Under the pieces are notes generated by a model. It did not search any database. It was not told the DNA's origin and worked only from the letters and a program-made list of their open reading frames with translations. From Bryobacteraceae bacterium (lineage in GTDB: Bacteria; Acidobacteriota; Terriglobia; Bryobacterales; Bryobacteraceae): 64,000 bases of DNA. Positions 41,795 to 60,858 of the stretch are shown piece after piece (the stretch's first letter is position 1; each line of letters starts with the position of its first letter). The position numbers and the translations under genes were made by a program. The stretch lies in the NCBI GenBank assembly GCA_030041495.1, contig JASHNT010000130.1, positions 1 to 64,000 of the forward strand. The letters are read 5' to 3'.

Positions 41795-43501
41795 CTACCC
41801 CGCGATCGACTTCCAGTTCTTTACCAATCGCTCCGCTGTTCGCCAGGCGAGCGCTTGCACGGTTAGTGTGGGGTTGCGGGCGCCGCCCGAGCCCATTACC
41901 GATGCTCCCAGCACGCCGAGATTCGGCACTTCGTGCGAAAAGCACCACGGGTCGACCACGTTGGTCTCGGGATTATCGCCCATGCGCGTGCCACCGAAGG
42001 CGTGCGTCGAAATACCCGGGCCGTTCACCGGATTCTTCAGCACGTCGGTTGCTCCGGCCGCCCGGAACCACTGCTCCATCTTGGTTTGCGCGTACAGCGC
42101 GGCGCGCTGCTCATTCTCCTTCGGACCTCCCGTGGTGATGCGGCACACCGGATCGCCGAGGGGATCTTTCACCACCGGGTCCAGATCCAGGTACGAAGTC
42201 TCGTAGGGAAAACTACTGGTTTGCAGATAGGTCACCGCGAAGCGCGCGGCGTTGTCATGGACGAACTCCTTCCACCGCGAGCCCCACCTCGGCGCGCGCC
42301 CGAAGGTAGTCATGTCCGCTGCCTCAATCGGGTGCCGCTCTGTTCGCACGTGCAAGCTGGTCCCGCCGATGAAATCGTGCCCGTTGTGATCGTATTGATC
42401 GTCGGCCCAATCGTCGACGCAGGCGCCCTGCGCGGGCAACCCGTACCAGATGTTTACGTCGAAGGGAAACAAAGCGCCCACGTTATCGACCCAATGACCG
42501 AAGTAATGCTTGCCCACCTGGCCGCGATTGTTGGAGAGGCCGTTCGGGAACTTCGGCGATTTCGAAAGCAGCAGCAGGCGGGAGTTCTCGTAGGTATAAG
42601 AAGCGAGCAGCACCACTTTGGCGGGCTGAATGAATTCCTTGCCGCCGCGCAGATAGTGTACGCCACTCGCGCGGTCCTTCGCGTCCACCACAATACGCGT
42701 GACCTGCGCGCGGTCGAAAATCGTCAGATGCTTGGTCTTGACTGCGGCCGGGATGGTCGTCACCGCAGTCGAGTTCTTCGCGCTAACGTGGCAGCCGCCG
42801 GTGGCGCAGTAGCCGTGGTAGGCGCACGACCCGCGACCGGCGTGGGGAACTGAATTAATCGCTGCCGGCGGAGCAAACGGATGCCATCCCAGTTGCTTCG
42901 CCACCTGCGCCATGTGATCGGTGAAGCCGCTCCCGCGCAATGGCGGCATCGGGTATTCCACCCGTCGAGGCGCCTCAAAAATGTTGCCCGCCGGATCGAT
43001 CTTTCCCTGAATGTTGCCGGCCTTGCCGCTTACGCCGACCTCTTTTTCGATGATCTCGTAATACGGTTCCAGTTCGTCGTAGGTGATGGGCCAATCTTCG
43101 AGCGTCGAACCTCTGGGAATCCGGCTCGAGCCGTAGCGCGCGGCGACTGCGGAGAGAGTGCGAAAATCCCACTCCTTCAGCCGCCAGCTCTGCGCCCAGT
43201 AATGAATGGTTGTGCCGCCGACTGCGTTCATCATGGGATGCGGACGCGCGGGCTGTGCGGTTTCGTCGGGATGTTGCCGCAGAGTCGGGCATTCGGCCTG
43301 AGCCTTGTTGCTCGAAGTTACCAGCCGCCGGACGTTGTTGTAGATTTCGTCAGGATGAAAGTCGCGGTGCGGGTCCATCCAAGTGCCGGCTTCGATTCCC
43401 GCGACGTTGAGACCGGCTCGCGCCAGAGGCAGCACGGCAACGCCTCCGGCTGCTCCCAGGCCGATCACCGCGACGTCAACGGGCTTGAGCGTAGTCGCCA
43501 T
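41795..43501 (-). CDS. GMC-family FAD oxidoreductase
   Basis: The 568-residue enzyme has an N-terminal FAD-binding motif (VIGLGAAGG) near residue 12, and the C-terminal GMC segment around GTRMGDNPETNVVD and GASVMGSGGARNPTLT. The family includes gluconate 2-dehydrogenase large subunits, cholesterol oxidase and choline dehydrogenase. A gluconate dehydrogenase-like membrane enzyme is the best match by length and motif style. No Tat or Sec signal is visible and no small subunit is adjacent, though it could be exported with a partner. It is divergent from the MmgE/PrpD gene with only 22 bases between. Confidence 0.9.
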   Translation of the reverse strand: MATTLKPVDVAVIGLGAAGGVAVLPLARAGLNVAGIEAGTWMDPHRDFHPDEIYNNVRRLVTSSNKAQAECPTLRQHPDETAQPARPHPMMNAVGGTTIHYWAQSWRLKEWDFRTLSAVAARYGSSRIPRGSTLEDWPITYDELEPYYEIIEKEVGVSGKAGNIQGKIDPAGNIFEAPRRVEYPMPPLRGSGFTDHMAQVAKQLGWHPFAPPAAINSVPHAGRGSCAYHGYCATGGCHVSAKNSTAVTTIPAAVKTKHLTIFDRAQVTRIVVDAKDRASGVHYLRGGKEFIQPAKVVLLASYTYENSRLLLLSKSPKFPNGLSNNRGQVGKHYFGHWVDNVGALFPFDVNIWYGLPAQGACVDDWADDQYDHNGHDFIGGTSLHVRTERHPIEAADMTTFGRAPRWGSRWKEFVHDNAARFAVTYLQTSSFPYETSYLDLDPVVKDPLGDPVCRITTGGPKENEQRAALYAQTKMEQWFRAAGATDVLKNPVNGPGISTHAFGGTRMGDNPETNVVDPWCFSHEVPNLGVLGASVMGSGGARNPTLTVQALAWRTAERLVKNWKSIAG

Positions 43502-43523: not shown

Positions 43524-44999
43524 ATGTTGCAGGACGGAACGACGCTCCGGCACCAATTGTCACGGCGAGCAATTTTGCGCGGCGCGGGAGGAATGATCGC
43601 TGCCGCGGCGCTCGGCCCGATCGCGCGGGCTGAGGATTCGCCCAGCTCCGTCATGCTGCGCCTCAGCTCCTACATGGCCGGGGCTCGCGAGCATGCCCTG
43701 CCCGCCGAGGTGATCGAGAAAACCAAGCAGCACACGCTCGATACTTTCGCCGCGATGGTTTCCGGCTCGAAGCTGCCTCCCGGACGCCTGGCGATCGCAT
43801 TCGCGGGAGCCAACGCGGGATCTGACGTCGCTACGGTAGCTGGATCGACGGTGCTCTGCGGACCGATGGAAGCGGCGCTGGTCAACGGCATGCTCGCGCA
43901 TTCGGACGAAACCGACGATTCACATGCGCCCTCGCAATCCCACCCGGGCTGCGGCGTCGTACCGGCGGCGCTGGCGGCGGGTGAGAAATTCGGAATCGAC
44001 GGAACCCGATTCCTTCGCGCCATCGCTCTGGGTTACGACATCGGCCCACGTGTCACCATGACGCTGGGAGCGCTGGCGTATATGGATGATAGCCATCGCA
44101 GCACGCATACGATCTCGAGCGAATTCGGAGCGGCCGCCGCGGCTGGAAGCGCGGCCAATCTCAATGAACGGCAGATGCGCTGGCTGCTGGATTACGCCGC
44201 GCAACAGGCCTCTGGCATCGCCGCTTGGCAGCGTGACACCGAGCACATCGAAAAGAGCCTGGTCTTCGCCGGATTCGGCGCGCGCAGCGGAGTCACGGCG
44301 GCATTATTGGTCCAGGCCGGAGGCACTGGGCTCGCCGACATCTTCACTGGAGCGGACAACTTCTTCGCGGCTTTCAATCCTAGCGCCGACCCTGAAAAAC
44401 TCATCGAGAAGCTGGGCGAACGTTACGAAGTCACTCGCACCAGCATCAAGAAATGGACTGTGGGTTCGCCGATTCAGGCGCCCTTGGACGCCCTCCAGAT
44501 CATCTTCGGCAAACGCATCTTCACCGCGGACGACGTTCGTTCCGTGACCGTCCGCGTCGCCACCAACGAGGCCTCCATCGTCAACAATCGCGAGATTCCG
44601 GACATCTGTCTCCAGCACATGGTCGCGGTGATGCTGATCGATAAGACGGCGTCGTTCCAAGCCGCGCATGACCTCGCGCGGATGAAAGATCCGGCAGTGT
44701 TGAAGCAGCGCGCCAAGGTGCAACTTATTCCCGACGAAGAGCTGCAACGCCGCTTGCCGCAGCGGGAAGCGATCGTCGAAGTCGCGCTCAACGACGGCAC
44801 GAAGCTCACCGAACGCGTGGAGGCCGTGCGCGGCGCGCCGGAAAACCCCATGACTCGCGAAGAGGTGGTCGCAAAAGCGCGCGATCTGATGACGCCGGTG
44901 CTGGGCGCGGAGAAGTGCAACCGGTTGATCGATCGCGTTCTACATCTGGAGAACGTCCCGAACATCCGCGACCTGCGGCCTCTTTTGCAGGTTGCGTGA
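43524..44999 (+). CDS. MmgE/PrpD family protein with a Tat signal
   Basis: The 491-residue protein has an N-terminal twin-arginine signal (SRRAILRGAGG) followed by a hydrophobic stretch to about residue 40 (IAAAALGPIARAE). The mature part is a standard MmgE/PrpD fold with VNGMLAHSDETDDSH near 120 and KKWTVGSPIQAPLDAL near 310. The family includes 2-methylcitrate dehydratase and cis-aconitate decarboxylase, which are cytosolic, so export is unusual. The frame is open to 43383, but ATG 43524 is preferred because it begins the Tat signal. It ends next to the convergent MBL gene with no gap. Confidence 0.88.
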   Translation: MLQDGTTLRHQLSRRAILRGAGGMIAAAALGPIARAEDSPSSVMLRLSSYMAGAREHALPAEVIEKTKQHTLDTFAAMVSGSKLPPGRLAIAFAGANAGSDVATVAGSTVLCGPMEAALVNGMLAHSDETDDSHAPSQSHPGCGVVPAALAAGEKFGIDGTRFLRAIALGYDIGPRVTMTLGALAYMDDSHRSTHTISSEFGAAAAAGSAANLNERQMRWLLDYAAQQASGIAAWQRDTEHIEKSLVFAGFGARSGVTAALLVQAGGTGLADIFTGADNFFAAFNPSADPEKLIEKLGERYEVTRTSIKKWTVGSPIQAPLDALQIIFGKRIFTADDVRSVTVRVATNEASIVNNREIPDICLQHMVAVMLIDKTASFQAAHDLARMKDPAVLKQRAKVQLIPDEELQRRLPQREAIVEVALNDGTKLTERVEAVRGAPENPMTREEVVAKARDLMTPVLGAEKCNRLIDRVLHLENVPNIRDLRPLLQVA

Positions 45000-45938
45000 T
45001 TATTTGGCGGTTTTCAACTGCGAATACACCATGCTGACAAAGCGATCCGCGCTGGTGCCGTTGCCCGCCCGTTCCAGTCCTCCGGGGACCTTGGCATCAT
45101 AAGGCGTAGTCACCTTCGCGGCTATCACTTCCTGCACGCTCTTGCCCTGATCGATCATCTTCTGCACCTTGCTCTGCACGTCCAGGATCATGTCGCGATA
45201 CGGAACAATGTCCTCACGATGAATGATGGTGCCGTGGCCCGGAACCAGGCGCGTGTTCGGACCGGCGATCTTCATCGTCTCATCCAGAGCTTCCAGCGCG
45301 CCCTTGAGCGTACCGCCGTTATTAGTGTCGATGAATGGGTATCCGTAGTTGCGGTAGAAATCGCCGATCATGATCACGTCCGCGTTTTCGAAGCGGATCA
45401 TGGTGTCGCCGCCGGTGTGCGCCGCGCGAACCGGAATCAGGTCGACGATTTCGCCGTTCAGGCGCAGCTTCACCGGATCGCCCATCCCGTAAGTCACCAC
45501 GGGCAGCCGAGCCGGATCAGCGGGCGGAGCATTGCCGCGAGCAGGCTGGCGCAGGAGCTCATCCCGCAGCTCTTCGCGGTCAAATAGGAGAGCGCCTTGC
45601 TTGACGAAAAACGCATCGCCGGCCGTGTGGTCGGGATGGACGTGAGTGTTCACCAGAAAACGAATCGGCTCATTGCTGATCTTGCGGATCGAAGCGAGTA
45701 CTTTATCCGTGATCTGCGCGTACTGCGCGTCGACCATGAAGATGCCGTCCGGACCCACGAGTATGCCGATCCTGCCGCCAGCCGCGTCCTCATGGCCGGG
45801 GTCCGCACCCGCGGAGCCGGAGAGAATGTAGAGGTTCGGCGCGAGTTTTTCTGTCAAGATCTCGATCTTGGCGTAGTCGATGCCCTGCGCCCATACAGTC
45901 GAAGACATCGCCGCGGCGGCCAGGATTACTCGCATCAT
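45000..45938 (-). CDS. Secreted metallo-beta-lactamase fold hydrolase
   Basis: The 312-residue protein has a signal peptide (VILAAAAMSSTVWAQ). The zinc site is THVHPDHTAGD near residue 110, with a further His in VPGHGTIIH near 230 and Asp in MIGDFYRN near 190. It resembles quinoprotein relay or cyclase-type MBL proteins often found with PQQ systems. It is the last gene of the seven-gene secreted operon and follows the aldolase-like gene by 13 bases. The substrate is unknown. Confidence 0.9.
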   Translation of the reverse strand: MMRVILAAAAMSSTVWAQGIDYAKIEILTEKLAPNLYILSGSAGADPGHEDAAGGRIGILVGPDGIFMVDAQYAQITDKVLASIRKISNEPIRFLVNTHVHPDHTAGDAFFVKQGALLFDREELRDELLRQPARGNAPPADPARLPVVTYGMGDPVKLRLNGEIVDLIPVRAAHTGGDTMIRFENADVIMIGDFYRNYGYPFIDTNNGGTLKGALEALDETMKIAGPNTRLVPGHGTIIHREDIVPYRDMILDVQSKVQKMIDQGKSVQEVIAAKVTTPYDAKVPGGLERAGNGTSADRFVSMVYSQLKTAK

Positions 45939-45951
45939 CGCCTTTGCTCCT

Positions 45952-46707
45952 CTACTTCACTTGACTCTTCCAATAATTCCAGGCGCGCTCGAAGCCATCC
46001 TGCGCCCCGGTTTTCTGCGCTTCCACCGGATCGAGGTACGTCACCGAGCCGCCCAGTGAGATCGCCTGCATTTCCAGGCGCGCGTTCATGTTCATGTAGT
46101 AGGCTCGGCCGACGACAACGTGCAGCGAATCCGCGACTACCACCGCTCCATGGCCCCGCATCAGAGCCGCGGGCTTGGCCCCGAGCGTCTGCGCCAGAGC
46201 CTTGCCCAACTCCGGCGTGCGGATCAGCATGTCCGTCAAACCGGCTGCATCGCGAATTTCGAAGATCGGCACCGGGACTTCCAAAAATCCAGCCATGTGA
46301 TACACCGGCCGCAGCGGCACGGAACTCACGCCGAACGGAATCACGTCCGGAGCGTGGCAATGCACAATAGCCATCACGTCCGGACGCGCGCGGTAAATTT
46401 CGCCGTGAATAAAGCGCTCCGTGTAGCCGGCGGATGCGTCGGCGTTCACCGGCTTGCTGTCGAGGTCGTATTGGATGATGTCAGCGGCAGTGACCGTTCC
46501 CGCGGCCATGTGCCGCGCGAGCCAAAAATGCGCCGGATCTTTGGGATCGCGGACGCTGACGTGGCCGTAGGCGTCGAGCACGCCTTCGTGCGCCAGGATG
46601 TGATTCGCGAGAACCAGCTCCTGGACCAGCGGCGGAACGGATTTTTTCACCGGAGTTTGTCCCTTGGCAACGACACAGCCCGCAAGCGCGAGGATGACAA
46701 ATCGCAT
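45952..46707 (-). CDS. Exported class II aldolase/adducin-family protein
   Basis: The 251-residue protein has a signal peptide (FVILALAGCVVAKGQ). The aldolase fold has HVSVRDPKDPAHFWLAR near 45, a metal-binding VHCHAPDVI near 120 and RGHGAVVVADSLH near 180. The fold usually acts in the cytosol on sugar phosphates such as fuculose 1-phosphate, but many members decarboxylate or act on unphosphorylated substrates, which would fit a periplasmic enzyme. ATG 46707 has AAGGGAG upstream. The frame is open to 46752, but that would remove the signal-peptide start. Confidence 0.88.
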   Translation of the reverse strand: MRFVILALAGCVVAKGQTPVKKSVPPLVQELVLANHILAHEGVLDAYGHVSVRDPKDPAHFWLARHMAAGTVTAADIIQYDLDSKPVNADASAGYTERFIHGEIYRARPDVMAIVHCHAPDVIPFGVSSVPLRPVYHMAGFLEVPVPIFEIRDAAGLTDMLIRTPELGKALAQTLGAKPAALMRGHGAVVVADSLHVVVGRAYYMNMNARLEMQAISLGGSVTYLDPVEAQKTGAQDGFERAWNYWKSQVK

Positions 46708-46717
46708 GATACTCCCT

Positions 46718-47512
46718 TCATTTGTTCGCCACGTGCTGGGCATCCTTTTCATTGTCCGTGCAGAAGTAGTCCAGCAGCTCTGTATTCAGCACGATGTTTT
46801 GATTCAGCTTCACGGTCCACGCTTTTGTGTACGCTCCCGGATCGTTTACGGTCAGCTCGATTTCCAGGCGCCCGTAGTTCACGCGGCGAAATCGCTCCGT
46901 GAGCTTGGCAGCTTCCGTTAGCGGACTACCGTTGCGGTCGAGCCAGGTGCCATTGCGCAAACCGTTAGTCCGGACCACCAACGTGTCGCCTTCCCAATTG
47001 CCTGTCGAATACCCGTTCCAATTGGGAGCAGGATCGACGGGCAAGGGCCGTCCGTCGGCGAAGATTTGCTGGAAGGTGACGTCGCGTTCCGAAAGGATCA
47101 CGATCTCGCCGGGAAGCTGGAGGATTTTTCGCGGCGGGGGAAAGGTGAGCAGGCGCACGACTCCGGCGGGAAGGCAGCGGGCGACGGGATCGTCGCGACC
47201 CTCCGCGGCGGTGCGCTGTTTCACCAATGTTGCGGCCCAGGGCTGATAGGGCAAGCCTCCGGGAAGCTTCGCGCCCAGGTTCAGAAACTCCGGTCCCGCA
47301 AGGTAATCGCCGCATCCGTCCTTCGGGCACGGCGCGTGTTCTAGTTCCCAGATTCCCGAAAGGTCCGGGAGACCCTCCGCGGTGCGCGGCGCGGGAGCGG
47401 AAAGATTCGGCTTGCCGTCGGGCGTGCGAGGAATTCCGGGAGTCGGATAATGCAACCATTGCGCGAACGCAGGAGCGCTGAACAGCACGCAGCACGCCAG
47501 CTTCGCTGTCAT
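46718..47512 (-). CDS. Secreted protein of an acidobacterial family, unknown function
   Basis: The 264-residue protein has a signal peptide (LACCVLFSAPAFAQ) and a mature start rich in PDG/PDLSGIW. Later motifs are QIFADGRPLP near 155 and GNWEGDTLVVRTNGL near 180, shared with three other genes in this window. These proteins are common in Solibacter-type genomes, and I cannot assign a function. The start is ATG 47512, preceded by an A-rich GAAAAAAAAGAA. The frame continues upstream to 47797, but that part overlaps the neighbouring gene and lacks a start signal. Confidence 0.82.
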   Translation of the reverse strand: MTAKLACCVLFSAPAFAQWLHYPTPGIPRTPDGKPNLSAPAPRTAEGLPDLSGIWELEHAPCPKDGCGDYLAGPEFLNLGAKLPGGLPYQPWAATLVKQRTAAEGRDDPVARCLPAGVVRLLTFPPPRKILQLPGEIVILSERDVTFQQIFADGRPLPVDPAPNWNGYSTGNWEGDTLVVRTNGLRNGTWLDRNGSPLTEAAKLTERFRRVNYGRLEIELTVNDPGAYTKAWTVKLNQNIVLNTELLDYFCTDNEKDAQHVANK

Positions 47513-47526
47513 TTCTTTTTTTTCAA

Positions 47527-47940
47527 TTATTGTTTCGGCTTCGCGGAGGCCGCCGTAATCGATCGCTCCGTCAGCGTGGTTCCGTCGGCCAGGGTCAGCG
47601 ACACGAACAGAGCCCCCGGCTCGCCCGAGATCAACGGAGCCGCCACGATGCTGACTTTGTCGCCCGGCTGAACTACGGTCTTTTTCCATCCCGCGCGGGC
47701 CAGATAACCCGGCGCGGTCATCTCCACGTTCCAGGTTTTGACGGCGCCGTCTTTTCCCGGAACCTCGATTTCGATGTAGCAGTGCGGATTCTGCCAACTG
47801 AAGGTTTTGACCGTCCCGATGAGCGTGACGGGATTCTTGCGGTCGAAGCCGGCCATCGAATGGTGCGCGGAGAGCGGCGCGGTGAAGCTAAAACCCAGCG
47901 CCAACGCGCCGGCGATCCAAAGGGCATTCATGATTCTCAT
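47527..47940 (-). CDS. Secreted DUF6152-like protein
   Basis: The 137-residue protein has a signal peptide (LWIAGALALGFSFTAPLSA) followed by HHSMAGFDRKNPVTLIG and FSWQNPHCYIEIEV. The N-terminal HHS of the mature protein and the NPH motif are conserved with the second copy at 49437-49835 and could bind metal, since the mature protein begins with His. ATG 47940 has GAGGAAGCC upstream. The family has no known function. It occurs twice in this operon, each time followed by a PDLSG-type protein gene. Confidence 0.85.
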   Translation of the reverse strand: MRIMNALWIAGALALGFSFTAPLSAHHSMAGFDRKNPVTLIGTVKTFSWQNPHCYIEIEVPGKDGAVKTWNVEMTAPGYLARAGWKKTVVQPGDKVSIVAAPLISGEPGALFVSLTLADGTTLTERSITAASAKPKQ

Positions 47941-47951
47941 TGGCTTCCTCA

Positions 47952-48740
47952 CTAACGGTCGGAATTGGTGCTGAGCAAGTGCTCATTCAAGTCCGGCAGG
48001 CACTCGGCTTCCGTAATTTCCTGATCGTCCACGCGGCGCCAACGCTTGGTCCACTTCCATTCGCCCTCCCAGCTCTTGGGATCGGTCATGGTGTACTGGA
48101 TCTCGAGCGTTGCGCCATTATCGAGCATCCGCATCCGTTCGATCACGTGCAAAGCATCGCTGGCCGGGACACCGTTGTCGATCCAGTGATGATCGTTGAC
48201 GAAGCCGGTTGTATCCACCACCAGCGAGTCGCCCTCCCAATGCCCGATGGATTCGCCGTTGAAGCTGGAGATGATCACGTCGGGATCGGTGTGCTTGCGT
48301 CCGTCCAGATAAATGATGCGGACGCTGTTCATGAATCCGCTGACCATAAAGATTACGGTCGGCTTCTGGATCATGGCGATGGGCCACACGCGCGTCATGA
48401 TGATGGGCAATCCGGCGGGCCAGCAATGGCCGATATCGTCCCGGTAGGATTTGCCCGCAGCCTGAGCTTTCTTGTAGGCGTCATACTGCGCCTGCGCCGG
48501 AGGGGTCAGCTTGAACCCCGGAGGAGGACTGAATTGCCACGGATTGGCCGGACCTCCGGCGTGCAGCCAGGTCCCGGTCACATCAAACGCGGGTTTGGGC
48601 CGCTGCTTGGCGATGGCGGCGGGCGCAAGAGCGCCTAGCGGCTTGCCATTTTCATCGAGCGGCGCGGGCGACTGCGCCTTAAGATACGCCCCGGCGCACA
48701 GCACCAAGGCCGCTAAAATGTTCATGCTTTTACTTGTCAT
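47952..48740 (-). CDS. Secreted protein of the same acidobacterial family, unknown function
   Basis: The 262-residue protein has a signal peptide (MNILAALVLCAGAYLKAQ). The core has VTGTWLHAGGP near residue 55, WPIAMIQKPTVIFMV near 120 and IGHWEGDSLVVDTTGF near 170, sharing the HWEGDTLVV motif with its neighbours. The start is ATG 48740, which overlaps the preceding gene's end by 11 bases. The in-frame ATG 48725 is also possible. It is flanked by its paralogue and by a DUF6152-like gene. Confidence 0.82.
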   Translation of the reverse strand: MTSKSMNILAALVLCAGAYLKAQSPAPLDENGKPLGALAPAAIAKQRPKPAFDVTGTWLHAGGPANPWQFSPPPGFKLTPPAQAQYDAYKKAQAAGKSYRDDIGHCWPAGLPIIMTRVWPIAMIQKPTVIFMVSGFMNSVRIIYLDGRKHTDPDVIISSFNGESIGHWEGDSLVVDTTGFVNDHHWIDNGVPASDALHVIERMRMLDNGATLEIQYTMTDPKSWEGEWKWTKRWRRVDDQEITEAECLPDLNEHLLSTNSDR

Positions 48741-49431
48741 GCAGCCTCATCCGGACCACGCCGTTCTGGTCCACGTACTCGCGGTTGTTTTCGCACACGA
48801 ACTCGACCATTTCGTAATTGGGGACGAACTTGTAGTTGAGCGTGTACGTGTACGGTTTCTCCAGCACCACCGGATCATCGATGGTGATTTGGTCCTGTAA
48901 CGTGTTGGCCCCAGTCTTGCGGATGCGCTCGCCGATGCGCATCTGCTCGCTGTGCGGCATCTCCTGGTAGCCGCGGACGGATTCCTTGATGCCGATGGTA
49001 TCGACAACCAGCGTATCGCCGTCCCAATGCCCGACGGAATGCCCGTAGTAGCCTGGATCGACGTCATCGAGCGAGAGCTGTTTCTTGCCGATGTAGATGC
49101 GCCGGACTTCGCTGAACGCCTCGCCGATGATGGTGACTTGTTCCGGCCGCTGGATGATTTCCATCGGGTAGATGGCGACCTGCATCATGCTCGGCATGCC
49201 ATAGGGTTCGCAAAGCCCGGCGGCGGCCAATTGCTCGCCCTTTGCGGCGGCTTCGCGTTCTTTGGCTCGCTTGGCGTCGTAGGTTTGCTTGTATGTGGGC
49301 TTAAGGAGCATAGGCTGCGGAGGGGCTCCGCCGCGGCCGCCGGCCGGGCTCCAGACTCCGCTAAGGTCGGGCGGCTGAGCAAAGACCACCGGCAAAGCCA
49401 GAAATAGAACCATCAGGCTTCGTGCATTCAT
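48730..49431 (-). CDS. Secreted protein of the same acidobacterial family, unknown function
   Basis: The 233-residue protein has a signal peptide (LMVLFLALPVVFAQ) and a mature start PPDLSGVWSPAGGRGG. Shared motifs are RIYIGKKQLSLDD near 110 and VGHWDGDTLVVDTIG near 135, followed by a C-terminal segment with aromatic residues (YTYTLNYKFVPNYEMVEFVC). It starts five bases after the first gene of the operon. All members of the family in this window are secreted and lie next to each other or to redox genes, so they are probably part of an exported catabolic unit. Confidence 0.82.
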   Translation of the reverse strand: MNARSLMVLFLALPVVFAQPPDLSGVWSPAGGRGGAPPQPMLLKPTYKQTYDAKRAKEREAAAKGEQLAAAGLCEPYGMPSMMQVAIYPMEIIQRPEQVTIIGEAFSEVRRIYIGKKQLSLDDVDPGYYGHSVGHWDGDTLVVDTIGIKESVRGYQEMPHSEQMRIGERIRKTGANTLQDQITIDDPVVLEKPYTYTLNYKFVPNYEMVEFVCENNREYVDQNGVVRMRLHDK

Positions 49432-49436
49432 GGTCT

Positions 49437-49835
49437 TCAGCGCTTCCCTTCGGGCCCGCGCCCGGGCCCATTGCCGAGCTTGCGTCCGTCCGCCAGATCC
49501 GCTTGCAGCAGCAAACCGCCCGCACTCCCGTCTTTAAGCGGATTGATGATGAGCGTAACCTTGTCGCCGGCCTTGAGGGTCGAATGAGTCCACCCGCTGT
49601 TGCGCAGAATGCTGGGACTGCCCAATTCGATACTCCAGTGCTTGATGGCGCCGTTCGTGTCCGCGGCGTCGATCTCGATGTAAGTGTGAGGATTGGTCCA
49701 TTCGAAGGAGGACACCACTCCGCTCAGCGTCACCTGCTTGGTGGTGTCGAACATCACGAAGGAATGATGCGCGGCCGCCGGCAGCGCAGCGAGCGTCGTC
49801 CCTGCAATTAGAGCACAAATTACGCGTCGGTTCAT
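49437..49835 (-). CDS. Secreted DUF6152-like protein, first gene of the operon
   Basis: The 132-residue protein has a signal peptide (VICALIAGTTLAALPAAA) directly followed by HHSFVMFDTTKQVTLSG and FEWTNPHTYIEIDA, so the mature protein probably begins with His-His. It is a paralogue of the gene at 47527-47940. ATG 49835 has a GGGGGGAG ribosome-binding site. A strong promoter lies about 42-70 nt upstream. The frame is open to 50027, but the extra codons have no initiation signal. Confidence 0.85.
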   Translation of the reverse strand: MNRRVICALIAGTTLAALPAAAHHSFVMFDTTKQVTLSGVVSSFEWTNPHTYIEIDAADTNGAIKHWSIELGSPSILRNSGWTHSTLKAGDKVTLIINPLKDGSAGGLLLQADLADGRKLGNGPGRGPEGKR

Positions 49836-49876
49836 GGCTCCCCCCAACGGCGCAGAAATGCGCGCGCCGAAAGGAT

Positions 49877-49905
49877 GCATCCTATCCCGCCGGGCCGCGG
49901 AAGTC
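49877..49905 (-). promoter_or_regulatory. Sigma-70 type promoter for the seven-gene secreted operon
   Basis: On the minus strand TTGACT (49905-49900), a 17-bp spacer and TAGGAT (49882-49877) fit a housekeeping promoter, the best -35/-10 pair seen in the window. Transcription should start near 49870, leaving about a 35-nt leader with a ribosome-binding site before the ATG at 49835. Confidence 0.6.
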
Positions 49906-50009
49906 AATCGCCACGGGCGAAAACACCGGGAAAAAACGCTGACGGGATTGACCCTAACCGCACAGTTGCATCTGATTTTCGTCCGGGGATTCTCTCCTTC
50001 CGATAGATA

Positions 50010-50837
50010 GGAGATCTTCTTGAGCATACGAGAGCAGGCGCAATCCCAGCGGCAGCAGCGGTGCTGATTGCGCTGGCCGGATTTGCCGGCGATCGCGCGG
50101 GTGCGCAGCAGAATGCACCAAGGGTCTCAATCAGCCCTGGAGCATGGCTTTCCTGACTCGTGGGCGTCCAGGATATTAATCTCCGCGATCCAGAGCGGTA
50201 ACGCTTCGCGCATTATTTTCGGCCCGGACGGAATGATCTACGACCGTCGGCGTGGCCGATCCTCCCGGGGCCGCGACGGCGCAGGACCCCAACGACCTCG
50301 CCGGCAAGGTGCTGCGCCTGCGTGACGAGGGCGCTGTTCCACCGGATAATCCGTTCGTCGGCCGCGCCGGCTACCGGCCGGAGATCTACACCATGGGCCA
50401 TCGCAACCCCCTGGGACTCGCGGTCGAGCCGGATAACGGCGGGATTTGGGAGTGCGAGGACGGACCCAACGGCGGCAACGAAGTCAACATTCTGCAGCCA
50501 GGCAAGAACTATGGCTGGCCCGTGGTCAGCTTCGGCCGTTTCTACCTCGGCCCGCGCGTCAGCGACAACCCGTGGCACGAGGGCATGGAGCTGCCGGTGG
50601 TTTACTGGGTTCCAGCGATCGCCATCTCCGGCATGACATTCTCACTGGCGACAAATTCCCAACTGGAAGAACAACGTTTTCGTCGGGGGCATGCGGCGCG
50701 GCGAAGTCCCGCGTTCGGGCCACCTGGAGCGGATCGACTTCAACGGCAAATGGGAAGAGCCCCACCGTGAGTCGATCCTCGAGGAGCTGCACAATCGCAT
50801 TCGCGACGTGCGGCAGAGCCCGCGACGGCCGCGCTGA
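50010..50837 (+). pseudogene. Decayed PQQ-dependent sugar dehydrogenase
   Basis: This stretch encodes pieces of a soluble aldose (glucose/sorbosone-type) dehydrogenase in several frames. A signal-like part (AVLIALAGFAG) is followed by PWSMAFL, then much of the N-terminal propeller is missing. FGPDGMIY and GVADPPGAATAQDPNDL come next, separated by a 2-base loss near 50240. The TMGHRNPLGLAVEP and GPNGGNEVN motifs follow, and then single-base losses near 50642 and 50661. The end (GGMRRGEVPRSG to TGA 50835) is in a third frame. The missing blade block cannot be explained by single sequencing errors, so real decay is likely. It fills the only stretch of about 1 kb without an intact gene. Confidence 0.8.
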
Positions 50838-50844
50838 GTCCGAG

Positions 50845-51918
50845 CTACGGGTGCAGCGTCAGCTTCTGCACTCTCCAGTTGCCCAGCTCGCCGACGTACA
50901 GCTCGTTTTCGCTGCGGCAGTCGATGGCATTGACCGTGCCGAACTCCTTGGGCAGCTTGCCGGCTTTGCCGAACTTGCCCAGGATCTTCCCGTCCAGCTC
51001 GACCTTGTAAATTTCGCCGCCGCTGTCGATATCGTCTTCCGGATTTGAATCGGAAGTGTAGAGATATTGATGCAAGCCTGGAGTGATGCAAATCGCCGCA
51101 GGCTCGCCGACATTCTCAATCTGCGATTTGAAGTTGCCGTCGCCATCGAATACCTGGATGCGCTTGTTGCCGGTATCGGCGACGTAGACGTTGCCCTGCG
51201 TGTCAATGGCGATGCCGTGCACGGTGTTGAACTGCCCTTGCTCGGAACCACGCGATCCCCAGCTCTTGATGAACTTGCCGTGCTTGTCGAACTTGGCGAC
51301 GCGATCGTTGCCGAAACCGTCCGCGACATATATATCGCCCGCCGCATCCCAAGCAACGTCGGTGGGCCGTTGAAAGACATCGCTCTGTTGTCCGGCTCCA
51401 GGAAGTCCGCGCCCGCGGCCACGGCCAGCCGGCGCCGCTCCGGGCACTGGAGCCGGCACGCGCTCAGATTCCGACTTCCGCCCCAACAGGAGCTGGTACT
51501 GGCCATTGGGATCGAACTTGATCACCATGCTCGACATCTGGTCTACCATCCAGACGTTGTCCTGCGGATCGACGCGCACCTGCTGCGCCACCAGCATCGC
51601 GTAGGTGTTCTGGCCGATCTCGCGCACGAATTTTCCGGTCTTATCGAATTCGAACAAGCGCGAGCCTCCATGCGCGAACGGCCGCGAAGTGCCAAGCGAA
51701 AGCGTCGGATGGCCGGTGCGGGTGTAGACAAAGATGTCGCCCTTGGAATTTGTGGCCACGCCTGCGACTTCGCCGAGAAAGATATTGTCCGGCAGCTTCA
51801 ACACGTCGGCGGAGTCGAAACGGATCTCCGGCACGGAGGCCGATGCGGAAGATTGCCCTGCCGCGGGAATCCCAGCGAGCATCGCAGCGGCGAGTGAAAT
51901 TTCAAATATGCGTCTCAT
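50845..51918 (-). CDS. Secreted NHL-repeat beta-propeller protein
   Basis: The 357-residue protein has a signal peptide (ISLAAAMLAGIPAAGQ) and about six NHL-type blades, for example VRVDPQDNVWMVD, PTDVAWDAAGDIYVADG and GIAIDTQGNVYVADTGNKRIQVF. A Gly/Arg-rich insertion near 165-180 (AAPAGRGRGRGLPG) interrupts one blade. It is a paralogue of the following gene, which is upstream in the operon, at about 15 bases distance. NHL propellers are often binding or lyase (peptidyl-amidoglycolate lyase) scaffolds. Lyase residues were not checked. It is the last gene of the five-gene operon. Confidence 0.88.
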   Translation of the reverse strand: MRRIFEISLAAAMLAGIPAAGQSSASASVPEIRFDSADVLKLPDNIFLGEVAGVATNSKGDIFVYTRTGHPTLSLGTSRPFAHGGSRLFEFDKTGKFVREIGQNTYAMLVAQQVRVDPQDNVWMVDQMSSMVIKFDPNGQYQLLLGRKSESERVPAPVPGAAPAGRGRGRGLPGAGQQSDVFQRPTDVAWDAAGDIYVADGFGNDRVAKFDKHGKFIKSWGSRGSEQGQFNTVHGIAIDTQGNVYVADTGNKRIQVFDGDGNFKSQIENVGEPAAICITPGLHQYLYTSDSNPEDDIDSGGEIYKVELDGKILGKFGKAGKLPKEFGTVNAIDCRSENELYVGELGNWRVQKLTLHP

Positions 51919-51933
51919 GGAGATTCTCCTGGT

Positions 51934-52965
51934 CTATTTCCCCGGCTTCAGCAGCAGCTTCTGCACGCGCCACGATTCGATTTCCGCCACGATGATCTGA
52001 TTGGGGTTGCGGCAATCCATCATGTGCACCACCTGGAAACCGCCCAGATCCTTGCCCGCGTGGCCGAACTTGCCCAGAATTGTCCCGTCCAGCTCCATCT
52101 TGTAAATCTCCCCGGTGATGTCCCACGTCCCCGGCCCGTTGCCGTTGGGATTCGAATTCGATGTGAACAGATACTGATGGGGCCCGGGCGAGATGCACAC
52201 GGTCCAGGAATCGCCGATATTGTCGTAGATCGCTTTGCGCTCCAGGTTGTTGTCGAATACCTGGATGCGATGGTTGGCGCGGTCCGAAACGTAAACATTG
52301 CCCTGCAAGTCCACGGCGAGCGCATGCGGAGTATTGAACTGGCTGGGTTCGGACCCAGGTTTTTCGCTGCCCACTTGCTTCAGGAAGCGGCCGTTCTTGT
52401 CGTACTTCACCACGCGGTGGTTGGTGTATCCGTCGGAGATAAAAATGTTGCCCTGCGGATCCCAAGCAACGTCGGTCGGCCGCGCGAGTGTATATTTTTG
52501 CGCCGGCGGCGCGGGCCCGTTGGTTGTCGCGAGCATCCCTGCCACTACCTCCGGCCGGTGCCCGATCACCATCGCGATCTTGCCCGCCGGGTTGAACTTG
52601 ATCACCATGTTGGTGCCTTCGTCCACGGCCCAGACGTTGTCCTGCGGATCGACGCGGACGGAATGCGCGAACTCGAAGCCGTAGTTGCCCTCACCCCACT
52701 CCTTCACGAACACGCCATTCTGGTCGAACTCGAACAGACGCGTGTTGGCGCTGCGCGTGAAGACGAAGAGGTGCCCCTTGGAGTCGGTGGCCACGCCCAT
52801 CGCCTCACCCAGGTACAGGCCGGACGGGAGCTTGAGATAATTCGGCACCGAGGTGTAGGGAATCTCCGGCACGTTCTGCGCCTTGGCCTTGGTCTGTGCC
52901 AGAGCGGACCCGGCCGGAAACAACAGGCCCACCGCGAGCGTGCAGTTAAGAAGAGATCGCTTCAT
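51934..52965 (-). CDS. Secreted NHL-repeat beta-propeller protein
   Basis: The 343-residue protein has a signal peptide (CTLAVGLLFPAGSALAQ) and about six blades, for example VRVDPQDNVWAVDEGTN, PTDVAWDPQGNIFISDG and ALAVDLQGNVYVSDRANHRIQVF. It is clearly paralogous to the neighbour at 50845-51918 but lacks the Gly/Arg-rich insertion. ATG 52965 has GGGAGG in the leader. The two NHL genes and the PQQ propeller upstream of them form a run of three propeller genes. Confidence 0.88.
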   Translation of the reverse strand: MKRSLLNCTLAVGLLFPAGSALAQTKAKAQNVPEIPYTSVPNYLKLPSGLYLGEAMGVATDSKGHLFVFTRSANTRLFEFDQNGVFVKEWGEGNYGFEFAHSVRVDPQDNVWAVDEGTNMVIKFNPAGKIAMVIGHRPEVVAGMLATTNGPAPPAQKYTLARPTDVAWDPQGNIFISDGYTNHRVVKYDKNGRFLKQVGSEKPGSEPSQFNTPHALAVDLQGNVYVSDRANHRIQVFDNNLERKAIYDNIGDSWTVCISPGPHQYLFTSNSNPNGNGPGTWDITGEIYKMELDGTILGKFGHAGKDLGGFQVVHMMDCRNPNQIIVAEIESWRVQKLLLKPGK

Positions 52966-53017
52966 GAAGGAACCTCCCGATTTCGGCGAATAACAGTCTA
53001 CGCTATCACGTCAAGTG

Positions 53018-54676
53018 TCACTCGGTCACTAACGCGAACGTCCACACCGATCCGCCCGCCGGCACCTTGCTGGCCGCCAGGCGCGACGCCGCGATTCCGC
53101 CGATGCCCGACAGAACCGTGACATACTGGCGGCCCTTGTACGTGTAGGTGATGGCCGTCGAGTTGACGCTGGAGCCGGTCTTGAACTGCCACAGAGTCTT
53201 GCCTGTGCTCTCATCCAGCGCCAGAAATTCGCCGGTAAGTTTGCCCGTGAACAACAGACCGCCTCCGGTCGCCAGCATACCCGCCGAGCTCGGCAAATCT
53301 GCCAAGGGAATCTCCCACTTTTTCTCACCGCTCAGAGGATTGATGGCCAGGAAATAGCCGAGCACGTCGCCCGGTTTATTTTCCGGCTGCCTGGCGATAA
53401 CACCGGTAGAAGTGCCGCCCAGTTGAACCGGTTTGGGAGCGTCGAGTTTCTGGATGCGTGGGACGTTCCAGGTGCTCGCGTAAATCAGACCCGTCGAAGG
53501 ATTGAAAGCGATGGGCACCGCGTTGGTGCCGCGGGAGGGCCAGATCTCGACCTCTTCTCCTGCGGCAAAGCGCCGGTACACGCCGGTCAGAATGGGCCGG
53601 CCAGTCTTCATGTCGATTCCCGATGCCCAGTTCACCTTTACGTACGGGTGCGCAGCGATCAACGTGCAATTGGTGCGGTCCAGAACATACAAGAACCCGC
53701 CCTTGTTGGTCTGGATCATCACCTTCCTAAGTTGCCCATTCACGCGAAGATCGGCGAGCACCTGTTCATCGGTGGCATCCACGTCATAGACGTCGTTGGG
53801 AGTGTATTGAAAGTAGCAGGCAACCTCGCCGGTCTTGGGCCGGATGGCCAGCACGCTATTGGTGAACAGACTATCCAGGCCTTGGCGCGGACGAGGATCG
53901 TACGGCTCTGCATTGCCGACGCCCCAGTACACCAGATCGAGATCCGGATCGTAGGAGCCGGAGCGCCACGTCGGGCCTCCGCCCTGTTGCCAGGCGTCCG
54001 AGTTCTTCGGCCAGGTTTCCGAACCGGGTTCACCCGGCGCCGGAATCGTGTATCTGCGCCACAATTTTTTCCCGGTGTCCGGGTCCCAACCGTCTAGAAA
54101 CCCCCGCGTGGTGGACTCGCCTCCGGACTCGCCGGAGATTACCACGCCATTGGCCACGATCGGCGCGCCGGTCGAGTAGTAGCCCTCATGCAAGTCCGCG
54201 AATTTCTGGTTCCACAGCACCTTGCCGGTCTTCATGTCCAACGCGAGGATGTGATTGTCCACAGTTATACGAAACAGCCTGCCGTTATAAATCGCCGGCG
54301 CTCCGCGATTGTAGGCGGAGCGCGTCACTCCGGGTTCAAGATCCACCGCGGTTCGCCAGATCTGGCGTCCGGTTTCGACATCGATGGCGAAGGTCCACTT
54401 GCCGTTGACGACGTACATTACGCCGTCGTAAATCACCGGCGCGGCCAGTTCGCCCTCCTCGTTCATCAGACTCGCATTCCAGACCGGCACCAGCCGCTTC
54501 ACGTTGGATTTGTTGATCTGCTTCAGCGGACTGTAACTCTGGCGGTCATAGCCCATACTCTGGGTGAGAACGTTTTCAGTACTCCGGCCGTCATGCACCA
54601 ACTCGTCATTGCTTTGCGGGTATCCGGGAAGGGCTGCGAAAGCAGCCAGCGCGGCAATCAACCTGAGTCTCTTCAT
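53018..54676 (-). CDS. PQQ-dependent quinoprotein dehydrogenase
   Basis: The 552-residue protein has a signal peptide (LIAALAAFAALPGYPQ) and the eight-bladed PQQ propeller with the repeating ALDxxTGKxLW(Q/N) motif. The catalytic region includes GESGGESTTRGFLDGWDPDTGK (short extract GESGGESTTRG) and the DVYDVDATDE segment supplying the active-site Asp. The adjacent-cysteine pair of methanol dehydrogenase is absent, so another alcohol or sugar is the likelier substrate. No cytochrome domain is attached, so electrons must go to a separate carrier. It starts 11 bases after the carboxymuconolactone decarboxylase-like gene. Confidence 0.92.
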   Translation of the reverse strand: MKRLRLIAALAAFAALPGYPQSNDELVHDGRSTENVLTQSMGYDRQSYSPLKQINKSNVKRLVPVWNASLMNEEGELAAPVIYDGVMYVVNGKWTFAIDVETGRQIWRTAVDLEPGVTRSAYNRGAPAIYNGRLFRITVDNHILALDMKTGKVLWNQKFADLHEGYYSTGAPIVANGVVISGESGGESTTRGFLDGWDPDTGKKLWRRYTIPAPGEPGSETWPKNSDAWQQGGGPTWRSGSYDPDLDLVYWGVGNAEPYDPRPRQGLDSLFTNSVLAIRPKTGEVACYFQYTPNDVYDVDATDEQVLADLRVNGQLRKVMIQTNKGGFLYVLDRTNCTLIAAHPYVKVNWASGIDMKTGRPILTGVYRRFAAGEEVEIWPSRGTNAVPIAFNPSTGLIYASTWNVPRIQKLDAPKPVQLGGTSTGVIARQPENKPGDVLGYFLAINPLSGEKKWEIPLADLPSSAGMLATGGGLLFTGKLTGEFLALDESTGKTLWQFKTGSSVNSTAITYTYKGRQYVTVLSGIGGIAASRLAASKVPAGGSVWTFALVTE

Positions 54677-54687
54677 GTTCTACCCCC

Positions 54688-56010
54688 TCAGGGAAGCGGC
54701 CGCGCAAGATACTTCAATCCGGGTTGCTGATTAGCAGCCAGCGGCAGGCGATCGACATTCATGAACATCGAAACGATCTGGTAGTACGCCGAGCTGACCA
54801 GGAGATCCACCACGCCGCGCTCGCCGAAAATGTTTTTGGCTGCTGCAAAGGTGAGGTCGCCGACCGCCTTGTTCTTGAACAACTCCGTGAGCAGGTTGTA
54901 GACGGCCGCTTCATCGGCTGACATGTTCGCGGGCCGTGTTCCCTCGGCAATGGCTCTCGCGACATCCGCGTTCAAGCCTGCCTGGACTGCCGCGCGGCTG
55001 TGTGCGTTCCACTCCGTCTGCGCGGCCCAATAACGAGCCGTGATCGCCAGCGCCAGTTCCTTGTCTTTGTCCGGCATGCTCATATGAAACCGCACCCGCT
55101 CGCCCATGGCAAAAAACAGTTGACCGGCTTCCGGGCTGCGCAGGAACAAGTTGAACGTCGCGCCGGGACCGCGCCCAGCGACCACCCCTTCGGTGTACTT
55201 CTTCTGCTCCGGCGTCATCTCGTCGTAGGTCAGCGGCCGGAAGCGGTCGCCTCGGATATTCAGCGCCTTTCCATTCACCGTCGAACTTGCGCTCTTCGGC
55301 GAAACCGGCCCGGGCACCGGCGTTGCGAAACCCATTCCGGCAACCGGTAAGGGATTTTCGAGCGGCTTGAGCTCGGGTTGAACGCCCGCTCCCAGCGGAT
55401 ATTCATCGGTATCCAAAATCATCGAGACCAGGCAATACCAGCCGCTCAAGCCGGTCATGTCCACGATGCCTTTTTCGCCGAAGGCCGCCTTGGCCGCCTG
55501 AAATGCGCCATTCGAGACCTGGTGAGTCGTCAGCAGCTCATCGATGAAGTTGTACGCCGCCCCCATTTCCGCGGGCATGCCGGTTGGCCGCCTTCCATTT
55601 GCGATCGCTGCCACGATCTCCGGTTTTACGCCGGCTTGAAGGGCCGCGGCCTTATGGGCGTTCCACTCGTATTGCGCCATCCAGAAACGGCCCGTCGTGA
55701 TGATGACCGTCTCGGAGACATCCTTAGGAAGATCCGTGCGGAAGCGCATGTATTCGCCGTACTTTGCTGCGAGATCACCGGCCTCCGGACTCCGCAACAG
55801 GACGTTGAACGGTCCGCGCACTCCTCCGCGGGGCCCGGCCAGCAGATGATCCACCATGATCTTCTGCTCCGGCGTCATGGCGTCGTATTTGAGCGGCGTA
55901 AAGCGGCCACCCGCCAGCACCAGCGTGTGGGGATCGATGGGCTGCTTGGACTGTGCCGTGGCGATCAGCGCCACGCCCAGAAAAAACGTGCAAGCGGCGA
56001 AAAGACGCAT
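54688..56010 (-). CDS. Secreted tandem carboxymuconolactone decarboxylase-like protein
   Basis: The 440-residue protein has a signal peptide (LFAACTFFLGVALIATAQ) and two homologous CMD-like halves, about 35-190 and 250-425. Each half has the (Y/T)EWNAH(K/S)xA motif (RFWMAQYEWNAHKAAALQAG in the first; YWAAQTEWNAHSRAAVQAG in the second). The usual E-x-x-x-C-x-x-H/CxxC motif of AhpD and CMD is not present, so peroxidase chemistry is unlikely. Decarboxylase or dehalogenase-like chemistry is possible. It is the second gene of the five-gene operon. Confidence 0.85.
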   Translation of the reverse strand: MRLFAACTFFLGVALIATAQSKQPIDPHTLVLAGGRFTPLKYDAMTPEQKIMVDHLLAGPRGGVRGPFNVLLRSPEAGDLAAKYGEYMRFRTDLPKDVSETVIITTGRFWMAQYEWNAHKAAALQAGVKPEIVAAIANGRRPTGMPAEMGAAYNFIDELLTTHQVSNGAFQAAKAAFGEKGIVDMTGLSGWYCLVSMILDTDEYPLGAGVQPELKPLENPLPVAGMGFATPVPGPVSPKSASSTVNGKALNIRGDRFRPLTYDEMTPEQKKYTEGVVAGRGPGATFNLFLRSPEAGQLFFAMGERVRFHMSMPDKDKELALAITARYWAAQTEWNAHSRAAVQAGLNADVARAIAEGTRPANMSADEAAVYNLLTELFKNKAVGDLTFAAAKNIFGERGVVDLLVSSAYYQIVSMFMNVDRLPLAANQQPGLKYLARPLP

Positions 56011-56065
56011 AGGGTCCTCCTTGCGCTTGAGCTATCTTATTCTACTTTGCCGATAACTGCGGGCG

Positions 56066-56887
56066 TCACTTCGCGGATAAATGCGGGTCGTCTTTTTCAT
56101 CTTCCTGGCAGACGAACTCGATCAAGTCCGTCGCCGGCAGCAGGCGCTGGTGCACGGTGACGGTCCAGGGCTTGGTGTAGGCTTTTGGATCGTCGATGGT
56201 GACTTCGATTTCCAGATGGCCGAAATCGACGCGCCGGAAGCGCTCCAGAATTTTGCCCTGATCCGATAAAGGACTGCCTTCCACGTCGAGCCAGCCCAGG
56301 TCGCGAAACCCCGACGTTTCGACCGCCAGCGTATCGCCTTCCCAGTGGCCGGTCGAGTAGCCGAACCACCACGGCTCGGCGTCCGGGCCGGGCAACGACC
56401 GGCCGTCGGTGAAAATCTGCCGCACGCCGCCGTTGGCCTCGTAAAGAATCACGATCACGCCGGGGGTCTGGATCATCTTGCGAGGCTGGCTGTGCGTGTG
56501 AAGCTGCATCAGCCCCAACGGCAAGCAATGCGCGTCCGGATTGTCTTTGCTGTTGGAGGCAACCCGTTGCCGGTGAAGCTCCGCCGCCCAGGGCTGGAAC
56601 GGGAGCCCTCCCGGGAAAGCCGCGCCGAGGTTCCAGAACTGGCTGGTGCGGACCGAAACCGGCGTGATATCGTTCGCTGACCGAGCCGCGGCCACGGCTT
56701 CTTCGGTCGGCGGAGCCGCCTGCCTTACGTATTGCCAGATTCCGGAGAGATCGGGTTTGCCGCCGGCGGTGCGTGGAGCGGGCCCGGTCAAGTCCGGCTT
56801 GTTGCCGGCCGGATAAGCGGGCCACTGCGCGAACAGCCCTCCAGCGCAGAACGCAAGCGTCACGCTGAGCCTCGCCAGCTTCGTCAT
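56066..56887 (-). CDS. Secreted protein of the acidobacterial PDLSGIW family
   Basis: The 273-residue protein has a signal peptide (LARLSVTLAFCAGGLFAQ) and a mature start with KPDLTGPAPRTAGGKPDLSGIW. It is closely related to the protein at 46718-47512, sharing the QIFTDGRSLPG and GHWEGDTLAVETSG motifs and a similar C-terminal DDPHLSAK/KDAQHVANK ending, so this family appears four times in the window. ATG 56887 has GAGGAGG seven bases upstream. It is the first gene of the five-gene operon that continues through CMD, PQQ and two NHL genes. Confidence 0.85.
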   Translation of the reverse strand: MTKLARLSVTLAFCAGGLFAQWPAYPAGNKPDLTGPAPRTAGGKPDLSGIWQYVRQAAPPTEEAVAAARSANDITPVSVRTSQFWNLGAAFPGGLPFQPWAAELHRQRVASNSKDNPDAHCLPLGLMQLHTHSQPRKMIQTPGVIVILYEANGGVRQIFTDGRSLPGPDAEPWWFGYSTGHWEGDTLAVETSGFRDLGWLDVEGSPLSDQGKILERFRRVDFGHLEIEVTIDDPKAYTKPWTVTVHQRLLPATDLIEFVCQEDEKDDPHLSAK

Positions 56888-60848: not shown

Positions 60849-60858
60849 GGAGAGGATC

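Follow-up and report, generated by a model that had tools for sequence, protein, structure and literature searches.

Which part of a cluster of predicted exported proteins is conserved as a unit, and which part varies around it? The question is raised by positions 43,524 to 56,887 of a 64,000-nucleotide stretch of DNA from a Bryobacteraceae bacterium (assembly GCA_030041495.1, contig JASHNT010000130.1; below, the window), where two operons and a neighboring PrpD gene encode a class II aldolase, a metallo-beta-lactamase-fold (MBL) hydrolase, a tandem CMD-like protein and several beta-propellers, together with two DUF6152 proteins and four members of a family here called PDLSG. The original prediction, made from the sequence, was that the set serves a single periplasmic pathway. 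Every gene that it named was found in the window, and the present analysis separates the conserved part of the module from the local part. We conclude that the conserved element is an exported two-protein module of DUF6152 and PDLSG, and that the catabolic-looking enzymes are its varying neighbors.

Pairing of DUF6152 and PDLSG across genomes

The co-occurrence of the two families elsewhere had been set beforehand as a test, and the outcome was positive in the genome that contains the window (below, the home genome), in metagenome-assembled genomes (MAGs) of two groups and on plasmids. The home genome (6.12 Mb) holds 101 PDLSG matches and 50 DUF6152 matches, the latter corresponding to 48 genes after two split pairs had been merged by hand. 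A PDLSG match is located on the same strand within 1.5 kb of 35 of these 48 genes, where about 1.6 would be expected, and 45 of the 101 PDLSG matches have a DUF6152 at that distance and on that strand. Likewise, same-strand PDLSG matches within 1.5 kb accompany at least 5 of 14, at least 18 of 40 and at least 15 of 30 DUF6152 in three gammaproteobacterial MAGs (expected 0.11, 0.51 and 0.51) and at least 30 of 49 DUF6152 matches in a Terriglobia MAG (expected 1.28), these MAG counts being lower bounds based on the best 150 of 264 PDLSG matches. Among 72,556 plasmid records, nine contain DUF6152 and eight contain PDLSG, and all eight are among the nine. The eight belong to Novosphingobium, Sphingobium and Croceibacterium (Sphingomonadales), some of them near-duplicate strains; because few genes of the plasmid loci were recovered by the simple gene caller, we used annotated coordinates for these loci, or open frames in the case of locus L207.

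Furthermore, the two proteins occur in one chain. Searches with hidden Markov models identified 22 genes encoding DUF6152 plus PDLSG in Acidobacteriota and Gammaproteobacteria. Of these, 17 are from two gammaproteobacterial MAGs; the home genome and the Terriglobia MAG have two each, and an uncultured Acidobacteriia MAG has one. The total should not be taken as a frequency, because 19 of the 22 were found in a set of 20 regions preselected for containing long reading frames, one of which (L197) gave none. Several related genomes have at least 37 DUF6152 matches each. Within a single genus, some genomes have as few as 2 matches and others 37 or more; the family therefore seems to gain and lose copies quickly.

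Each DUF6152 gene in the first operon is followed by one or two PDLSG genes, which the original prediction had described as if the set had been duplicated. The duplicated look is real, but it is that of a four-gene block, DUF6152-PDLSG-PDLSG-DUF6152 (D-P-P-D; genes at 49437, 48730, 47952 and 47527), whose order is kept in relatives with each gene best matching its own counterpart. Searching 150 genomes of the family with the 47952 protein (E ≤ 1e-60) gave eight genomes, the home genome included, and five of the seven others contain the full block (L178-L182). Of the remaining two, L177 shows part of the block in a stretch that ends at 2.4 kb, and L183 has a distant match (46%) in a different arrangement. 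The orthologs in locus L133, from the Terriglobia MAG, are 59-74% identical to the block genes of the window; L133 shares identities and N-termini with L180, is probably the same genome and was counted once. Because the orthologs are this similar while the two mature DUF6152 copies of the window are only 39% identical to each other, the arrangement is, to judge from the sequences, old and retained, with each of the four positions orthologous across genera.

A histidine tip on a predicted OB fold

Both DUF6152 genes of the window exceed the PF19649 cut-off of 27 bits, copy b with 103.2 and copy a with 118.4 bits. We counted histidines in 108 DUF6152 proteins (103 distinct), of which 95 cover the N-terminus, the eight left out appearing truncated or to have misplaced starts. 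Three histidines, a His-His pair and a single histidine in an NPH motif, are present in 93 of the 95 N-terminally complete proteins, and H1, H2 and H28 are invariant in an alignment of the mature sequences (A4). The NPH histidine is found in 98 of the 100 sequences that cover its position. An alanine directly precedes the first histidine in 92 of 94 sequences, whereas in other proteins it precedes 27 of 260 His-His pairs, and the same Ala/His-His tip is present in all six Sphingomonadales plasmid copies in which it is readable; one further frame, in L207, is outside this count. At position -3 of the predicted cleavage site, 26 of 62 sequences have Ala, 17 Leu, 8 Val, 6 Met and five have others.

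One hypothesis is that signal peptidase cuts right before the His-His pair, so that the mature protein would start with two histidines. These two, the NPH histidine and the free N-terminal amine could then form a metal site, with copper or nickel as the most likely metals. An N-terminal histidine is a natural metal chelator, and we propose that DUF6152 carries the sequence pattern for such a site on a new scaffold. A model of the mature protein computed with AlphaFold2 (AF2) from 22 sequences had a mean predicted local distance difference test score (pLDDT) of 88.7 and a predicted template modeling score (pTM) of 0.81. Its elements follow the order strands 1-2-3-helix-4-5, as in the OB fold, with the NPH histidine between strands 1 and 2. 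Among the PDB matches listed by Foldseek, most were OB domains of SSB, PriB, Rim1 and LysRS (best E 3.1e-3). Judging from the model, DUF6152 is predicted to be a small secreted OB-fold protein.

We also considered the possibility that, instead of forming a transition-metal site, the histidines have a part in structure, in cleavage or in the binding of haem, and that the N-terminal pair is kept because it docks on PDLSG or on haem. The three histidines are kept in nearly all fused DUF6152-PDLSG proteins, which would fit docking too, and a barrel partner could conceivably hold haem, as we take calycin biology to allow. However, the position that follows the pair varies more freely (Ser in 77 of 95; A, G, P and E also occur), while both histidines of the pair and the NPH histidine are near-invariant. 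A set of ligands fits this pattern better than a general docking patch, and we therefore regard the docking or haem explanation as unlikely.

Exported metalloproteins with an N-terminal histidine are already known. Four exported bacterial families found by the histidine that follows their signal peptide bind nickel or copper, as described in excerpts of PMC12537917. DUF6152 resembles DUF4198, DUF6702 and the anglerases Ang-1 and Ang-2, small secreted families that were found by their N-terminal histidine and bind nickel or copper; thermal shift with metals was used to test metal binding by DUF4198 and DUF6702, and a link with membrane permeases is described for the anglerases (PMC12537917). 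There are differences as well: DUF6702 and the anglerases are beta-sandwiches, whereas DUF6152 is predicted to have an OB fold; the N-terminal histidine is conserved in 79% of DUF4198 and 65% of DUF6702 versus 94 of 95 DUF6152; and the excerpts describe no calycin-like partner for DUF4198, DUF6702 or the anglerases, whereas DUF6152 has PDLSG (PMC12537917).

In its principle the proposed site would also resemble the histidine brace, which requires the N-terminal amine, an N-terminal histidine and a second histidine (excerpts of PMC10952591). In the brace, the amine and two histidine nitrogens coordinate copper in a T shape. Like the copper proteins with this brace (LPMOs, CopC, pMMO site B and X325, with YcnI as a mono-histidine variant; PMC10952591), DUF6152 is predicted to be exported and to begin, when mature, with histidine, and it has a further near-invariant histidine; unlike them, it would begin with His-His and has a predicted OB fold, a fold that finds no mention in the excerpts of PMC12537917 and PMC10952591. 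In the full texts searched, we found no paper naming DUF6152 or DUF6644, none joining an N-terminal histidine with the OB fold or CusF with the OB fold, and none on the calycin motif terms or on gene-family expansion in the Bryobacterales. CusF is a periplasmic OB-fold copper chaperone with internal His, Met and Trp ligands. DUF6152 resembles it as a small, predicted exported OB-fold protein proposed to bind metal, but its ligands would be N-terminal. An OB-fold version of the N-terminal-histidine metalloproteins, paired and fused with an unnamed barrel family, would be a new form of this known kind.

PDLSG as a predicted calycin-like barrel

Neither the four PDLSG proteins of the window nor the 60 of alignment A5 had a Pfam or NCBIfam match beyond chance. 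An AF2 model computed from 60 sequences, with the protein at 56066-56887 as the query (mean pLDDT 86.5, pTM 0.83), is a beta-barrel of nine strands with extra helices. The 50 matches listed for this model are all weak, with template modeling (TM) scores of 0.42-0.60 by target length; they comprise 49 cellular retinoid-binding proteins and a single streptavidin. The motif that gave the family its name contains G-x-W, of which G29 is invariant and W31 is present in at least 90% of the 60 sequences, on a model strand spanning residues 29-33. In calycins, G-x-W is a hallmark that marks the first strand.

The predicted barrel, the nearest folds and the conserved G-x-W are thus shared with the calycins (fatty-acid-binding proteins, lipocalins and avidins). 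The extra helices, two near-invariant cysteines, the weakness of the fold matches and the lack of a Pfam or NCBIfam family set PDLSG apart. With these reservations, PDLSG is predicted to be a calycin-like barrel. Tandem PDLSG fusions with two barrels per chain were observed in L017, L060, L081, L082, L096, L099, L106 and L126, and in L126 a DoxX-like membrane part is also fused to PDLSG.

A hypothesis for the module

We lean toward the hypothesis that DUF6152 and PDLSG form an exported module in which an OB protein with a histidine-tipped metal site works together with a ligand-holding barrel, while the enzymes vary locally. The PDLSG barrel would hold a small, probably hydrophobic, ligand. 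Docked on this barrel, DUF6152 would supply the metal, whether for a reaction on the ligand or for the binding of a complex of metal and ligand. The ligand could differ from copy to copy of the pair, and the captured compound might be acted on by the membrane protein DUF6644 or by enzymes encoded nearby (MBL, CMD, aldolase, PQQ or NHL propellers). Because PDLSG resembles ligand-binding barrels and is paired with and fused to DUF6152, in dozens of copies, ligand capture or oxidation seems a better fit than metal housekeeping.

Several observations weigh against this hypothesis. In the home genome, 13 of the 48 DUF6152 genes lack a PDLSG on the same strand within 1.5 kb, and 56 of the 101 PDLSG matches lack a DUF6152 so placed; of the 78 named loci that were retrieved through PDLSG, only 17 contain DUF6152, and many PDLSG genes are solitary. 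Signal peptidase has a residue preference at position -3, where the Leu (17 of 62) and Met (6 of 62) of some DUF6152 sequences are less usual. In the model, the first ten residues of DUF6152 have a mean pLDDT of 78, and strand 1 begins only at residue 13. The fold matches are weak for both proteins, none having E ≤ 0.001: among the matches listed, the TM scores by query length are 0.39-0.55 for DUF6152 and 0.24-0.35 for PDLSG (best E 1.3e-3). Sequence searches of solved structures gave no match to DUF6152 at E ≤ 1 and a single chance-level match to PDLSG (E 0.7). Finally, one fusion (L011) has lost all three histidines, and another (L074) keeps the His-His pair but has DPR for NPH. We also asked whether the pair and the NPH histidine are lost together; such coupling is unproven, because only these two rows bear on it and L074, which lost the NPH histidine alone, breaks the pattern.

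A more specific version, which we put forward tentatively, is that the pair belongs to an unrecognized class of metal-dependent exported systems: the OB protein with its two-histidine tip would load the metal into or onto the barrel, which would hold a specific organic ligand, the pair would oxidize or capture this ligand outside the cytoplasm, and the dozens of pairs per genome, differing in specificity, would make up a large repertoire for organic compounds of the soil. Should the histidine tip bind metal, it would be a new scaffold for an N-terminal-histidine metal site, and also a first handle on the many proteins that the Bryobacterales and some Gammaproteobacteria export; a pair shown to be an enzyme system would go beyond a variant of known metalloproteins. 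Together the two families account for about 150 matches in the home genome, yet PDLSG has no family in Pfam or NCBIfam, and the histidine tip makes this large unnamed family testable at the bench.

DUF6644 and possible metal delivery

Another explanation is that DUF6152 scavenges or chaperones metal, in the manner of CopC or the anglerases, and delivers it to the membrane protein DUF6644, with PDLSG as a second carrier and catabolism unrelated. DUF6644 is a small membrane family with 24 matches in 13 clusters in the home genome, and three of the 13 clusters lie within 2 kb of a same-strand DUF6152 (p 0.002). Its members share a near-invariant histidine (12 of 13 rows, with one gap) and an invariant arginine (13 of 13). 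DUF6644, PDLSG and DUF6152 occur together in three of four Sphingomonadales plasmid loci, the annotation of the fourth (L205) listing no DUF6644, and a TonB receptor is listed in two of the three annotated loci. DUF6644, with these conserved residues, is a third partner that recurs near DUF6152, which lends metal delivery some plausibility. However, 48 paralogs in one genome would be far above the needs of metal homeostasis, 10 of the 13 DUF6644 clusters have no same-strand DUF6152 within 2 kb, and the 25 commonest families among 113 neighboring proteins in the home genome include no known metal transporter family and no copper family. We consider pure metal delivery improbable. DUF6644 was also seen near DUF6152 or PDLSG in Acidobacteriota, Gammaproteobacteria and Alphaproteobacteria (including L115, L204, L206 and L207).

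Predicted export of the gene set

The features of the window are listed in Table 1. The first minus-strand operon (49835 to 45000) encodes, in this order, DUF6152, PDLSG, PDLSG, DUF6152, PDLSG, class II aldolase and MBL; the second (56887 to 50845) encodes PDLSG, tandem CMD, PQQ propeller and two NHL propellers. Neighboring genes within the operons overlap or are separated by at most 55 bp. The PrpD gene is convergent with the MBL gene and abuts its stop codon, and thus represents a separate transcript.

Table 1. Genes and landmarks of the two operons and the adjacent PrpD gene, by position in the window
Feature	Position	Strand	Remarks
MmgE/PrpD, Tat-type leader SRRAIL	43524..44999	+	PF03972 and PF19305; ATG 43524
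Predicted exported MBL-fold hydrolase	45000..45938	-	PF00753
Predicted exported class II aldolase	45952..46707	-	PF00596, 96 bits; leader rule passed
PDLSG-family protein downstream of D-P-P-D block	46718..47515	-	Start taken as ATG at 47512
DUF6152 copy b	47527..47952	-	PF19649; predicted cleavage between A and HHSM; His-His at 47860-47865
PDLSG copy b of block	47952..48740	-	8/150 family genomes at E ≤ 1e-60, home genome included
PDLSG copy a of block	48730..49431	-	Ortholog in L133, 62%
DUF6152 copy a, first gene of D-P-P-D block	49437..49835	-	PF19649
DUF6152 copy a landmarks	His-His 49764-49769; NPH histidine 49686-49688	-	Predicted cleavage between A and HHSF; codons checked
Predicted exported NHL propeller	50845..51918	-	PF01436
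Predicted exported NHL propeller	51934..52965	-	PF01436
Predicted exported PQQ-dehydrogenase-like beta-propeller	53018..54676	-	TIGR03075, 491.7 bits (cut-off 480)
Predicted exported tandem CMD-like protein	54688..56010	-	PF02627 on first half
PDLSG-family protein, first gene of second operon	56066..56887	-	Query for AF2 model

Leaders were scored with a rule of our own, a hydrophobic run with a basic residue and an A-x-A-like site. With the called starts, 11 of the 12 operon genes pass, both DUF6152 copies among them, and the twelfth (47952) passes from an in-frame upstream ATG at 48740. As a control, six of 38 genes pass in positions 1-41639 of the window. The rule evidently errs once, in passing the GMC oxidoreductase at 41795-43501, a false positive with a Rossmann-like start. 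The expectation that nearly all genes of the set carry leaders was thus confirmed. So was the Tat leader predicted for PrpD: from the ATG at 43524 the protein passes the rule and carries SRRAIL, which we take to be of the Tat type, whereas the shorter called start fails. The simple gene caller misplaces some starts (PrpD, L179, L181, L195 and L199).

Predicted exported versions of the enzymes are recurrent, as the original prediction implied. The rule is passed at 11 of 14 aldolase loci, the one in the window included, and by four of five two-domain CMD relatives, and the failures in these two groups include starts that appear too short. Two of the four PrpD genes in the home genome (window and L037) have Tat-type leaders that pass, and two (L139 and L140) fail. 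A tandem aldolase with a lipoprotein-like leader, identified by eye, was observed in a Sulfopaludibacter MAG (L068).

The enzymes as local neighbors

If the two operons and PrpD encoded one periplasmic catabolic pathway, DUF6152 and PDLSG would be its dedicated binding proteins. The recurrence of exported aldolase, CMD and PrpD versions agrees with such a pathway, as do a same-strand PDLSG-DUF6152-CMD run in L159 and a CMD relative that adjoins an NHL gene in L158. However, the enzyme set is not kept together. In 150 family genomes, the aldolase was found in 11 and CMD, with many single-domain matches, in 17, the home genome included in both, and the two are on different contigs in all ten relatives holding both; since all are draft assemblies, the distance between them is unmeasured. 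PDLSG is found within the 1.5 kb flanks of two of 13 aldolase loci in relatives, which is not above chance (p 0.22-0.45), and of four of 18 CMD loci (p 0.03-0.14), the p ranges depending on the assumed number of PDLSG genes. Moreover, the fetched flanks of the D-P-P-D blocks in relatives gave no match to the aldolase or MBL. We therefore reject a single conserved enzyme operon and consider the one-pathway hypothesis very unlikely; likewise, we found nothing that points in particular to a plant-derived or an aromatic substrate, as had been suggested.

A search for a recurrent catabolic partner was also unsuccessful. The scan covered 113 of 121 neighboring proteins in the home genome, the eight left out being the longest and very small ones. 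No single enzyme dominates, because the commonest families reach only six (MBL), five (DUF6644), five (cytochrome c) and four (PQQ) occurrences. PDLSG-MBL fusions with an MBL domain related to that of the window are found in L029 and L091, and they give the MBL a firmer tie to the PDLSG family than either the aldolase or CMD has.

The aldolase has its Glu/His-x-His/His set where it is usually found, and HxHxDH is kept in the MBL, presumably in the roles familiar for these motifs; because these residues are kept, both proteins look able to bind metal. The PQQ-dehydrogenase-like protein (53018-54676) is similar, too, to the acido-empty-quinoprotein group, scoring 387 bits with TIGR04528, below the cut-off of 650. 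PqqE was not found above the cut-off in the home genome, which is 98% complete (best 76.6 versus 381 bits). For these two reasons, the protein would either use imported PQQ or be an empty propeller.

Two further observations concern the surroundings of the operons. A glucose/sorbosone dehydrogenase fragment between them (50252-50770, plus strand; PF07995 positions 138-261 of 332) resembles a decayed gene. Beside the second operon, the plus strand at 56983-62199 encodes an ankyrin protein predicted to be exported, a DUF1592-type protein that contains a cytochrome, and a DUF1552 (HXXSHH) protein whose leader is of the Tat type.

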